Positions 29,800 through 33,778 of a stretch of 33,778 bases of DNA are shown piece after piece. A model generated the notes under the pieces. It ran no database searches. It worked only from the letters and a program-made list of their open reading frames with translations, and was not told the DNA's origin. Origin of the DNA: an uncultured Bacteroidota bacterium. Its GTDB lineage: Bacteria; Bacteroidota; Bacteroidia; Flavobacteriales_F; PHOS-HE28. Each line of letters opens with the position of its first letter. The stretch's first letter is position 1. Where the stretch lies: the NCBI GenBank assembly GCA_902825795.1, contig CADECG010000025.1, positions 1 to 33,778 of the forward strand. The letters run 5' to 3'. Both the position numbers and the translations under genes were made by a program.

Positions 29800-31155
29800 T
29801 TATTTCAGTTTTCCGATAATGTCTTGTTTGGTAAGAATACCCAAGCCATTGGGCATTTGCACGAGCACGGCTGGTGAGCCGTTGCCCAAGCGTTTGGCCA
29901 CATCCTCCAGTTTGCTGTCCTGCGGGATCACCGGCAGGGCGGGGCCCATTACGGTGCGTGACTTCTGATGGCGCACTTCGGCATCCTCAAGGATCGCATC
30001 AAAAAGGCGCGCATCGGTAATGGTACCGACCGGCTTTCCATTCTCCATTACAGGTAGCTGATCGATGTTGTGCTTGCGCATGCGCTCGATGGCGATGAGC
30101 ACGGGCTCCTCCGCCTCCACCGAGACCAGTCCCAGGTCCTTGCCTTTCAGCAGGTCGCCAGCGGTGGGTTTTTCTTCCACGAGGAAGCCGCGCTCGCGCA
30201 TCCAATCGTCGTTGAACATTTTGCCCACGTACCGCGTGCCGTGGTCGTGGAAGATCACCACCACCACTTCGCCCTTCTTGAAATTGTCCTTTAACTGGAG
30301 CAGCCCGGCCATAGCGCTGCCTGCGCTGTTGCCCACGAAGATGCCTTCCTCCTTCACGATACGTCGCGTCATGATCGCCGCGTCGCGGTCGGTCACTTTC
30401 TCGAAGTGATCGATGAGGTCCATGTTCACGTTCTGCGGAACGAAATCCTCGCCGATGCCTTCGGTAATGTACGGGTAGATCTCGTTCTTGTCGAAGATGC
30501 CCGTCTCCTTCAACTTCTTGAAGACCGATCCATAGGTATCGATGCCCCACACTTTCAAGTTCGGGTTCTTCTCCTTCAGGTATTTCGCGGTACCGCAGAT
30601 GGTCCCGCCTGTACCCACGCCAACCACGAAGTGATCGATCTTGCCACCGGTCTGCTCCCAGATCTCGGGTCCTGTGGTCTCGTAATGTGCTTGGCTGTTG
30701 CTGGGGTTGTCGTACTGGTTCGCTTTCCAGCTGTTCGGGGTTTCAGCCACTAGACGTGAGCTCACGGAATAGTAGGAGCGCGGGTCCTCGGGATCGACGT
30801 TGGTGGGGCACACGATCACTTCCGCGCCGAAGGCGCGCAGGATGTCCACCTTCTCCCGGCTTTGTTTGTCAGTTGTGGTGAAGATGCACTTGTAGCCCTT
30901 GATGATGGCTGCTATGGCCAAGCCCATCCCGGTGTTGCCGCTCGTTCCCTCAATGATCGTCCCACCCGGTTTCAAGCGGCCATCCCGTTCGGCATCTTCC
31001 ACCATCTTCAACGCCATGCGGTCCTTGATGCTATTGCCGGGGTTGAAGGTTTCCACTTTGGCCAGTACCGTGGCCGCAACGTCTTTCGTGAGGCGGTTGA
31101 TGCGCACCATCGGTGTATTGCCGATGGTGGATAGGATGTTGTCGTGGATCTTCAT
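29800..31155 (-). CDS. Cystathionine beta-synthase (PLP fold plus CBS domain pair)
   Basis: 451 residues. It should condense serine with homocysteine to cystathionine, or act as an O-acetylserine-type cysteine synthase. The PLP lysine is Lys44 in NPGNSIKDR, the phosphate loop is GTSGNTG at 70-76, and the second loop is GVGTGGTICG. Residues about 320-451 form a CBS domain pair (KDLGLVSVEAEEPVLIAIER ... VPQD-like VIPQDSKLEDVAKRL) that may sense adenosine ligands. No haem domain is present, as in bacterial forms. It is the first gene of the five-gene run. TACCTTCG on the minus strand at 31172-31179 resembles TAnnTTTG with one mismatch. Confidence 0.92.
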   Translation of the reverse strand: MKIHDNILSTIGNTPMVRINRLTKDVAATVLAKVETFNPGNSIKDRMALKMVEDAERDGRLKPGGTIIEGTSGNTGMGLAIAAIIKGYKCIFTTTDKQSREKVDILRAFGAEVIVCPTNVDPEDPRSYYSVSSRLVAETPNSWKANQYDNPSNSQAHYETTGPEIWEQTGGKIDHFVVGVGTGGTICGTAKYLKEKNPNLKVWGIDTYGSVFKKLKETGIFDKNEIYPYITEGIGEDFVPQNVNMDLIDHFEKVTDRDAAIMTRRIVKEEGIFVGNSAGSAMAGLLQLKDNFKKGEVVVVIFHDHGTRYVGKMFNDDWMRERGFLVEEKPTAGDLLKGKDLGLVSVEAEEPVLIAIERMRKHNIDQLPVMENGKPVGTITDARLFDAILEDAEVRHQKSRTVMGPALPVIPQDSKLEDVAKRLGNGSPAVLVQMPNGLGILTKQDIIGKLK

Positions 31156-31192: not shown

Positions 31193-31210
31193 GGGCGGTC
31201 ATGACCGCCC
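31193..31210 (-). terminator. Perfect 18-base palindrome at the stop of the LolC/E gene
   Basis: GGGCGGTCATGACCGCCC begins, on the minus strand, with the last base of the TAG stop. It is followed by CCGATGACC without a U-run. It separates the permease gene from the cbs gene 37 bases downstream. Confidence 0.65.
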
Positions 31211-32820
31211 TAATCGAACTGTATGGCGCGCACCGGCGGAATGCGCGTTACCAACATGCTCGGTAGCACGAGAGCCGCCAAACAGACCAGCAATACACCC
31301 ACATTCAGCGCAACGATCGGCAAGGGGTCGATCGCTACCGGCACGGCATGCACATAGTACACATCCATGTTGAGCGTGGCGAGACCTGTCCAGCGTTGCA
31401 GGAAGCACAGGCCAACTCCCAACAGGTCGCCCGAGAGTATGCCGATGCCCAGAATGTACGTCGCATCGATAAGGAAGATGCGCCGGATGACCCCGTTCGG
31501 GCTGCCCAGCGATTTCAGCACACCGATCATGGCCGTGCGCTCCAGAATGATGATGATCAGCGCACTTGTCATGTTGATGATGGCAACAATGGTCATCAGC
31601 ACGATCACCACCCAAACGTTCGTGTCCAGCAATTCGAGCCATGCGAACATTTCCGGGGATCGCTGCCGCACCGTGACCGTGCGCATCCCGTACCCCAAAT
31701 GATCCTGGTAGATGACATCGTCCATCGCGATGAGATCATTGTAGCTCTCCAGTGCGACCTCGAAGCCACCCACATACTGTTCATGCGTGCTGCCAACATG
31801 GGAGCGTTCAACTCGTGCGCGTTGCACGACCCAGTCTGTCCCCAGACTATGTGTGATAGGTATTGATAGATCCGGGACGATCCGCACACTGGACGTGTCG
31901 GGGTTGGTGCCGCTGTTGTCGTGCACCACCAACGTGAAGGAGGTGTCCTTGGGTTCTGTGGGGAATTGGTCGGGCCGCCAGTTCGGGTTGTGCCAGTCCC
32001 ACACTTGAACACGGTGGGGTCCCGGGCCTTTCAGGTCGGTGCCGGGCCATTCGTAGGTGTAGTTGCGGTCGCCGCCAAAAGCCGAAGCTGTGATGGTCAC
32101 GAAGCGACCGTCCTCCACGTCGCCAACGCTGATCTCCGCCTGCAGGCCCCAGCCACTGAAGCGCTGCAGGTGCCCAATGTCAATGAACACCACTTGCTGG
32201 TCCAACTGCTCCAACCCGGTGCGGTAGATCCCGCACACATTGAATTTCCGTGGCCGTATGTCCTCCCGACCCTTTACCAAGTAGACGGTGATCGTATCGC
32301 CAACACCAATGCCCAACCGTTCCGTCATCCATTGGCTCAGCAGCATCTCATTGTTGTGGCCTGAGCTGTCGCTCTTTTCCGCCGTGATCGCAGGGACCGA
32401 TCCAGCCACCAAGTGTTGTTGCAGGAAGGTCCAATCGTGGTCGGCGTCAACGCCTTTCACCATCACACCTTGTATCTCTTCCTCGGTTTCAATGATGCCC
32501 GGTTTGGTGGCATACACCTGAATATGTCGAACGCCGGGCAACGTGTCCAAGTGCGGATAGAATGCTTGGTTCACCGAGATGCGCGGGGTTTCCTTGGCAT
32601 CGGTCTGCTGCATGCTGGTGATCTGCAGGTGGCCGCCCGCACCGATCAGTTTGTTGCGCACTTCGTCCTGAAAACCGGTGCTGATGGCAACGGTGATGAT
32701 CATGACCGCCATGCCGATCACGATCCCGAGCACAGCGATCCATACGATGGGGCGCGATAGCCGGTCGTGACGATCTTTGGCCGAAAGGATGCGCTGCGCG
32801 ATGAAATGTGCGAAACCCAC
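31210..32820 (-). CDS. LolC/LolE-type permease (FtsX/MacB family) with inserted periplasmic domain
   Basis: 536 residues from the GTG at 32820; the family's usual size is about 400. The start GFAHFIAQRILSAKDRHDRLSRPI then a first transmembrane helix (VLGIVIGMAVMIITVAIS) is the standard LolC/E opening. Three transmembrane helices close the protein (VVIVLMTIVAIINMTSALIIII, then YILGIGILSGDLLGVGL and LNVGVLLVCLAALVLPS). Between the usual MacB-type periplasmic region and GFEV, residues about 226-348 hold an extra domain with PKD/Ig-like strands (RFVTITASAF, YTYEWPGTD, SFTLVVHDN, SSVRIVP). LolCDE moves lipoproteins out of the inner membrane; the ATPase LolD is not in the window. An in-frame ATG at 32895 is an alternative start. 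Confidence 0.85.
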   Translation of the reverse strand: MGFAHFIAQRILSAKDRHDRLSRPIVWIAVLGIVIGMAVMIITVAISTGFQDEVRNKLIGAGGHLQITSMQQTDAKETPRISVNQAFYPHLDTLPGVRHIQVYATKPGIIETEEEIQGVMVKGVDADHDWTFLQQHLVAGSVPAITAEKSDSSGHNNEMLLSQWMTERLGIGVGDTITVYLVKGREDIRPRKFNVCGIYRTGLEQLDQQVVFIDIGHLQRFSGWGLQAEISVGDVEDGRFVTITASAFGGDRNYTYEWPGTDLKGPGPHRVQVWDWHNPNWRPDQFPTEPKDTSFTLVVHDNSGTNPDTSSVRIVPDLSIPITHSLGTDWVVQRARVERSHVGSTHEQYVGGFEVALESYNDLIAMDDVIYQDHLGYGMRTVTVRQRSPEMFAWLELLDTNVWVVIVLMTIVAIINMTSALIIIILERTAMIGVLKSLGSPNGVIRRIFLIDATYILGIGILSGDLLGVGLCFLQRWTGLATLNMDVYYVHAVPVAIDPLPIVALNVGVLLVCLAALVLPSMLVTRIPPVRAIQFD

Positions 32821-32830
32821 GTTGGCCGTT

Positions 32831-32863
32831 CCACCTACCTGCCGGACAGGCAGGTTCAGGTGG
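32831..32863. repeat. Hairpin element ACCTGCC...GGCAGGT between divergent genes
   Basis: ACCTGCC (32837-32843) and GGCAGGT (32849-32855) pair around GGACA. Outside, CCACCT (32831-32836) pairs with AGGTGG (32858-32863) after a two-base bulge. I remember CCTGCCGGACAGGCAGG-type elements as scattered between genes of Bacteroidota. It lies between, or at the very start of, the two divergent genes. Confidence 0.6.
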
Positions 32864-32867
32864 CGGC

Positions 32868-32875
32868 CGAAGATA
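32868..32875 (-). promoter_or_regulatory. Possible -7 box TATCTTCG for the permease gene
   Basis: Minus-strand TATCTTCG, one mismatch to TAnnTTTG, 47 bases before the GTG at 32820. No -33 TTTG was found. Confidence 0.3.
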
Positions 32876-32881
32876 GCTGCC

Positions 32882-33778
32882 TTGGTTGCGGGCATTGTTT
32901 GCACTACCCCGGCCTGCACCCAGGTTGCTCCGGCCAGGCAACAGCCTCCGAAGGATGGCTCTGTTCCGGTGGTATCGACCCAAGCGGTGCTTGCTTCCGA
33001 GCCCGCTGTTGCGCCGATGGTCGGCGCGGAGCGCACGGGTGAGTACTTGTCGCGGATCGTGGGCAAACGGATCGCGGTGGTCACGAACCACACGGGCCTC
33101 ATAGACGGCGTATCGCTGGTCGATTCGCTGCTCGCGCTGCGCGTTGACGTGAAGAAGGTCTTCAGTCCGGAACATGGCTTTCGCGGGGATGCTGACGCGG
33201 GTGCACATGTAGGCGATGAGCGCGATGCGCGCACTGGTCTTACGGTGATCTCCTTGTATGGCGATAACAAGAAGCCAACGCCGGAAGCCTTGGCGGATGT
33301 CGATGTGATCCTCTTCGACCTGCAGGATGTGGGTGTGCGGTGCTACACGTATATCAGTACACTGCACTACGTGATGGAGGCTTGTGCTGAGCAACGCAAA
33401 CCGCTGATCGTTCTGGATCGGCCGAACCCCAACGGCTTTTTCGTCGATGGTCCTGTGCTACGGCCGGAGCACTCGTCCTTCGTTGGCCTGCATCCTGTGC
33501 CGCTGGTGCATGGTATGACGGTAGGGGAGTACGCCCGTATGATCAACGGCGAGCATTGGTTGAAGGATGGGGCACAATGCGACCTTACTGTTGTGGCGTG
33601 CGAGGGATACGATCACAAGACCTACTATAACCTACCGGTGAAGCCCTCCCCGAACCTCCCGAACATGTCGGCGGTGTACCTCTATCCATCGCTCGTGCTG
33701 TTCGAGGGTACTGCTGTGAGTGTTGGGCGCGGCACCGAAAGGCCGTTCCAGTGCATCGGCTTGCCCGGTGGCAAACTC
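32882..33778 (+). CDS. NamZ-type exo-muramidase (DUF1343), 3' end beyond window
   Basis: The frame is open to the last base. The domain from about 33056 is unmistakable: GKRIAVVTNHTGLIDGVSLV, KKVFSPEHGFRGDADAGAHV, VISLYGDNKKPTPEALADVD, FDLQDVGVRCYTYISTLHYV, VLDRPNPNG, DGPVL, GMTVGEYARMINGE and LPVKPSPNLPNM. Proteins of this group (GH171) release MurNAc from muropeptide ends. The N-terminus (VAGIVCTTPACTQVAP) is a signal peptide. The start is not certain: an ATG at 32801 would overlap the divergent permease start and include the hairpin element, whereas TTG 32882 begins at the hydrophobic stretch. I give the latter with low trust. The NamZ name rests on family memory. Confidence 0.85.
   Translation, partial: MVAGIVCTTPACTQVAPARQQPPKDGSVPVVSTQAVLASEPAVAPMVGAERTGEYLSRIVGKRIAVVTNHTGLIDGVSLVDSLLALRVDVKKVFSPEHGFRGDADAGAHVGDERDARTGLTVISLYGDNKKPTPEALADVDVILFDLQDVGVRCYTYISTLHYVMEACAEQRKPLIVLDRPNPNGFFVDGPVLRPEHSSFVGLHPVPLVHGMTVGEYARMINGEHWLKDGAQCDLTVVACEGYDHKTYYNLPVKPSPNLPNMSAVYLYPSLVLFEGTAVSVGRGTERPFQCIGLPGGKL

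Follow-up and report, generated by a model that had tools for sequence, protein, structure and literature searches.

A LolE-like permease of Bacteroidota with a predicted PKD/Ig-like inserted domain and its probable kinship to T9SS surface-protein units

The permease gene and its partner components

The window, by which we mean the whole stretch of DNA analyzed (33,778 nucleotides from an uncultured Bacteroidota bacterium), contains close to its end a minus-strand frame at 31213-32820 that translates into 536 residues without a stop. Its GTG start was inferred from relatives. The features of this gene, in window positions, are as follows.

31210-32820, minus strand: gene for a LolE-like ABC permease of 536 aa, with the stop codon at 31210-31212 (translation, Pfam and fold)
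32635-32757, minus strand: first long helix, residues 22-62, comprising TM1 and its extension (DSSP of the model; TM assignment inferred from the family)
32152-32634, minus strand: periplasmic domain preceding the insert, residues 63-223 (secondary structure of the model and MacB_PCD)
31777-32148, minus strand: inserted domain, residues about 225-348 (83 of 118 aligned proteins have 60 or more residues inserted here; separate predicted fold)
31864-32151, minus strand: PKD/Ig-like core within the inserted domain, residues 224-319 (VIA-align to 4l9d)
31798-31842, minus strand: return strand of a long hairpin, residues 327-341, running back to the permease (model strands 308-324 and 327-341)
31672-31743, minus strand: helix 360-374, loop and strand 379-383, the likely counterpart of the LolE cleft from the order of elements (DSSP and PMC12846838)
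31249-31656, minus strand: C-terminal transmembrane region with the FtsX domain, helices within residues 389-524 (Pfam and model)

Residues 63-223 are presumably the Porter/Sabre part in the nomenclature of the family. The inferred start at 32820 lies within the 5' part of a divergent plus-strand frame (32777-33778) that is open at the end of the window; depending on which start codons are the true ones, each gene may begin inside the other. The downstream neighbor (29800-31155, minus strand) looks by eye like a cysteine synthase or cystathionine beta-synthase with a C-terminal CBS-like part. A frameshift or assembly artefact in the permease gene is ruled out, as the protein is matched over its full length, at 56-65% identity and without stops, in 37 further genomes of the genus.

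Pfam assigns MacB_PCD to residues 27-222 (1.3e-14; 55.4 bits against a cut-off of 27) and FtsX to residues 404-529 (3.5e-12; 46.9 bits against 25.5). The order MacB_PCD then FtsX, with both above the cut-offs, is the architecture of LolC/E-type permeases of the FtsX/MacB superfamily. Between the two domains Pfam detects a weak SprB repeat alone, at residues 242-258 with E = 0.11. The AlphaFold2 model of the whole protein (71 sequences) has a mean pLDDT of 92.2 and a pTM of 0.85. Its top structural match is the LolE chain 9rld_E, with Z = 30.9 and rmsd = 3.5 over 394 of the 536 residues, and ranks 1-11 are all occupied by LolE or LolC chains. The preliminary description of the gene as a LolC/E-type permease is therefore upheld. 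The 142 residues outside the 9rld_E alignment are similar in number to the insert, a comparison of totals and not of residue-level alignment. In sequence the best PDB match is LolF (9w37, 9w35 and 9w2w), followed by LolE and LolC.

The protein thus resembles LolE and LolC of the E. coli LolCDE complex, a type VII ABC transporter, in its fold and in its combination of MacB_PCD and FtsX. The genome also encodes a second permease, just as LolCDE has two. LolF on the other hand works as a homodimer, according to the passages of the literature covered, whereas the window genome has two different permeases with the domain in one of them. The NCBIfam lolCE model TIGR02212 gives the permease a score of 154.6 bits. 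This is below the cut-off of 362.45, and we have therefore named the protein LolE-like and not LolE. The insert is ruled out as the cause of the low score, because the cut-off is missed in the same manner by all four relatives tested that have no insert (148.6-185.2 bits). It is missed also by all four insert-bearing relatives tested (132.9-148.5 bits) and by the partner permease of the same genome (174.1 bits).

The partner permease has 407 aa and is encoded on contig C37. In a second GTDB order, described below, we found a second permease in 60 of 60 genomes, each time as a single match of about 1150-1240 bases, which leaves no room for the domain. The domain is confined to one of the two permeases in these 60 genomes, and for them it is ruled out that both carry it. 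The two permeases probably form one complex of the LolCDE type. LolD gave 39 matches in the window genome, all of them below the cut-off (the best 269.3 against 307.75 bits), which is passed in one of 14 control genomes. LolA gave two PF03548 matches above the cut-off, a family that is matched by two archaeal controls as well. It is strongly supported that the gene encodes the LolE-like subunit of a Lol-type transporter with two permeases, whose predicted role is the release of lipoproteins from the inner membrane.

The inserted domain and its relatives

The insert is flanked by the Porter helix ending in LQRFSGW and the strand GGFEV, that is in the periplasmic region just before GFEV, where it had been placed at the outset. 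In relatives from other families the tryptophan that ends the Porter helix is linked to GGFEV by a loop of some seven residues. By eye, the domain of about 125 residues in the window permease takes the place of a loop of some three residues (218-221) in E. coli LolE. The boundaries originally proposed, 31780-32145, agree within a codon or two with the 31777-32148 found here, and the peptides YTYEWPGTD, SFTLVVHDN and SSVRIVP by which the insert was first recognized are all present in the translation.

In the model of the whole protein the 10-residue blocks of the insert (221-350) have mean pLDDT values of 87-97, with a lower value of 76 for 271-290. Modeled by itself (66 sequences) the insert has a pLDDT of 90.3. 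Structure prediction thus returns the separate domain that had been anticipated. Its strands comprise residues 226-236, 240-249, 254-257, 269-272, 293-301, 308-324 and 327-341, and it is confidently predicted to be a domain of its own, probably a PKD/Ig-like beta sandwich with a return hairpin. The top VIA-align match is PKD1 of Vibrio cholerae PrtV (4l9d; Z = 6.5, rmsd = 2.5 over 78 residues), tied with several Ig domains. The match spans residues 1-96 of the domain model, and a Z below 8 is weak and may reflect merely a common arrangement of strands. Foldseek returned nothing for the insert model at E <= 0.001. PKD and Ig domains are therefore the best matches to the compact sandwich that had been surmised from the sequence, yet at a Z of this size the PKD/Ig label depends upon the VIA-align match and the sequence pattern together. 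The nearly invariant positions of the insert are G, GG, W, G, D and DT.

We built a profile from 66 insert domains and ran it on 395 genomes of the class, 203 of which match at E <= 1e-5. Among the matches listed, the strong ones outside the permease lie nearly all in long frames, mostly of 600 to several thousand codons, and the best of these reach 2e-13 to 3e-15. Five such loci were read: a type B-like tail closes L107 and L108, and the remaining stretches are truncated or incomplete. The window genome itself has two unit-bearing proteins of 1008 and 1060 aa (L142 on C152 and L143 on C157), both of which carry the T9SS type B sorting domain TIGR04131 above the cut-off. Their unit shares the motif GxGPHxV with the insert. 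Across seven aligned surface units, the common elements with the insert are GG, Y.Y.W, L.G.GPH (GPH not in every row), TT..V.V.D and DT. Comparison of the insert with the surface units by hhalign gives a probability of 99.3 over 67 columns, a value that is partly circular because the unit rows were picked via the insert profile. The SprB family PF13573, with a gathering score of 28 bits, is matched at E <= 1 by nine of the 66 insert domains (best 0.016). The insert of the window scores 15.0 bits, and four of six surface-protein units tested score 14.7-22.0 bits, all below the gathering score, with no match for the remaining two. In the PDB the best two entries for the insert profile are both named Decoration protein (E = 4.5e-4 and 3.2e-3).

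We are highly confident of the LolE-like identity of the permease taken together with the kinship of its insert with units of T9SS surface proteins. The kinship is most simply read as the capture of a surface unit by the permease, and transfer in that direction is suggested because the units are widespread in surface proteins. There are differences. The SprB-/PKD-like T9SS type B units belong to long frames, of about 1000 aa and upward, whereas the insert is a single copy nested in a membrane permease and has the extra return hairpin.

Distribution, history and selection

Searches at the level of the genus and of the order gave an identical set of 45 genomes, so that this genus alone represents its GTDB family and order in the sample. 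The match is of full length in 38 of these, including that of the window, and it covers the insert in 40, where G034 and G042 are split over contigs yet cover the insert. G011 and G036 match in the second part only and G018 in the first 186 residues only. Two further genomes of the genus, G027 and G031, give no permease match at E <= 1e-20; G031, which is 99% complete, gives none at E <= 1e-15, through either an assembly gap or a true loss. The alignment includes 34 proteins of the genus.

The second GTDB order is that of G104. Here E <= 1e-40 is reached in 105 of 120 genomes, and a near-identical draw gives 104 of 120. We read 52 of the proteins: eight from a draw on the class, 29 best matches (biased toward a good insert) and 15, mostly weak, from a set chosen to seek exceptions. 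That set comprised 20 genomes, three of them unmatched at E <= 1e-15, and from it we excluded L117, which is cut, and L126, whose frame is interrupted by a stop. Of the 52 proteins, 49 carry 60 or more inserted residues. In L112, L113 and L127 the site has just 10-14, and in some other rows the insert is divergent or shorter, such as the 85 residues of L120. The three proteins without the insert are apparent losses, in rather small genomes (G496, G464 and G432) of 2.2, 2.4 and 1.5 Mb, the last being 78% complete. The frame of L111 (G459) has 933 aa and extends some 460 residues upstream of the permease homology, either as a fusion or merely as an open frame.

Over both orders the insert is present in 83 of 86 proteins read, from ten GTDB families. 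The 32 proteins that we read outside these orders all lack it, but they were picked for matching in pieces without the insert and are not a random sample. Counted from the beginning of the match, the 118 aligned proteins fall into 83 of at least 466 aa, whose insert has 60 residues or more, and 35 of 398-437 aa with 7-14 residues at the site. This confirms the excess of about 130 residues over the usual length that was first noted. An insert unique to this one genome is ruled out. As it is common to the genus, so far as this can be read, and to the second order, it is a trait of the clade and not a peculiarity of one protein.

Among the listed matches in the class, permease-sized frames with the domain are found in families f1, f52, f75 and f19 only, in 25 of 395 genomes. 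No insert of another family of the class is found among the listed matches to the insert profile, a list that stops at the weaker ones. Direct reading reveals a divergent insert in four more genomes of family f19, G062, G280, G304 and G384. G280 is absent from the listed matches, and the other three are weak profile matches of unlisted place, so that a divergent insert elsewhere could escape notice in the same way. In a draw of 247 genomes from the phylum only the window and G104 match at E <= 1e-50, a threshold that is too strict as it misses G062 too.

The tree was calculated under LG+G4 from 98 rows with the columns of the insert excluded; 20 surplus or near-duplicate rows were omitted, and the midpoint root serves for drawing only. 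Presence and absence of the insert require four changes of label on the tree, and 32 of the 35 rows without it form one group (99/97). A root on the no-insert side is consistent with one gain and three losses, and a root among the insert-bearing rows with four losses. Gain is favored because solved LolC, LolE and LolF chains of other phyla (393-414 aa) lack the domain. L127 joins L120 on the tree and both have long branches, so the loss in L127 carries less weight. The data are consistent with a single capture before the split of the two GTDB orders, followed by losses. The domain appears to be dispensable at least in the second order, given the three proteins without it and the others in which it is divergent or shorter.

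Within the insert pN is lower than pS in all 38 insert-bearing close pairs among the 40 listed of 41, which are not independent of each other; for L061 and L062 the values are pN = 0.054 and pS = 0.44. In most pairs from the genus the insert has a pN two to four times as high as the periplasmic part before it. The exceptions are two pairs with ratios of 7 and 10, the closest pair where the two are about equal, and L042/L043 where the insert has the lower value. Mean pairwise identity is lowest in the insert (0.30), followed by the short Porter segment after it (0.33) and the periplasmic part before it (0.39), and reaches 0.53 in the membrane parts. Purifying selection acts on the insert, but in most comparisons it changes faster than the rest of the permease. 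This is consistent with a constrained fold that has a variable surface.

The faster evolution, together with the three proteins without the domain and the divergent forms inside the clade, would also suit a tolerated passenger. Such a domain would have entered a permissive loop in frame long ago and would lack a specific function, its fold being maintained because misfolding is selected against. We think this rather unlikely. A domain retained in nearly all the proteins read, with pN below pS and a near-invariant core, is long-lived for ballast, and the Porter segment following the insert evolves about as fast.

Position beside the cleft and possible role

In E. coli the linkers of lipoproteins cross a shallow cleft in LolE formed by the helix Val231-Val244, a loop and the strand Val249-Ser253, located before TM2 (PMC12846838). 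In the passages covered of that 2026 study, the cleft elements 231-253 touch three cargoes, and swapping out residues 235-252 impairs function (PMC12846838). In our model the insert is followed by the strand 352-357, the helix 360-374, the strand 379-383 and then a membrane helix, and the order of elements ahead of TM2 in LolE is identical. The insert begins one strand ahead of the elements that correspond to the cargo-linker cleft of E. coli LolE. The N-terminal match of the family profile stops at LolE 219-220, paired with the first residues of the insert, which likewise places the insert shortly before the cleft in sequence. The domain would lie beside the cleft on the periplasmic face, a placement deduced from the order of the elements. 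By eye there is no obvious counterpart in the permease of the Tyr248/Tyr250 clamp of E. coli LolE.

The domain might alternatively be a docking site for a periplasmic partner and not for cargo, most likely a LolA-type chaperone, or else a cell-envelope protein. The two LolA matches above the Pfam cut-off in the window genome would provide such a partner, and a related permease does recruit one through its periplasmic domain, as LolA binds to LolC (PMC10865981). Yet in E. coli it is LolC and not LolE that recruits LolA, via its periplasmic domain and hook, in the passages covered of both studies (PMC10865981, PMC12846838). The hook hairpin of the LolE-like subunit is short irrespective of the insert, with 27-29 residues over the measured stretch in all 83 rows with the insert and in 32 of the 35 without; the other three have 36-39 residues. 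It is therefore ruled out that the insert replaces a lost LolC-type hook. The hairpin of the partner permease is longer by eye. A short hook is as expected for a subunit that would not recruit LolA, and we regard the docking site as unlikely.

The position before the cleft and the short hook together lead us to think of the domain as a cargo-side accessory, a role that is plausible though far from assured. Tentatively, the best explanation of the whole is that a captured domain of the surface type acts as an accessory platform on the cargo side, next to a LolE-like cleft. While the acyl chains are turned and handed to LolA, the domain might grip the folded passenger or its linker, or guide it. 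As in E. coli, LolA would bind the other permease, here the one with no insert, and the fast evolution of the domain might mirror lineage-specific cargo. A bolder version seems to us improbable: a unit of the surface-adhesin type, captured once, would have become a built-in cargo receptor by the linker cleft, with which the Lol machine selects or pre-sorts classes of lipoprotein. Anchoring of the transporter to peptidoglycan or glycan, as such repeats may do on the cell surface, would agree with the kinship with surface-protein units, but the near-invariant positions resemble fold residues, ligand binding by SprB/PKD-like repeats has to our knowledge not been generally demonstrated, and we consider this reading very improbable.

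In the passages covered of a study of Bacteroidota, LolA and LolB are the subject and LolCDE/F is called essential, with no word of an insert in LolC/E (PMC11885536). A survey of titles and the openings of abstracts, with subscription papers mostly outside its coverage, found no description of such an insert. The combination of a known transporter type with an extra domain of unusual kin appears to be new.

A folded domain added to one of the two permeases bears on the adaptation of the Lol machine in Bacteroidota, which export many outer-membrane lipoproteins and where this subject is little explored. Were the domain a true cargo receptor, classes of lipoproteins, for instance those bound for the surface or for the T9SS and gliding machinery, would be sorted already at the inner membrane. 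At this locus a domain within an inner-membrane exporter is akin to one found in secreted surface proteins. The insert-bearing clades, the clades without the insert and the apparent losers together constitute a natural experiment on a domain that probably lies near a cargo cleft of the E. coli type.
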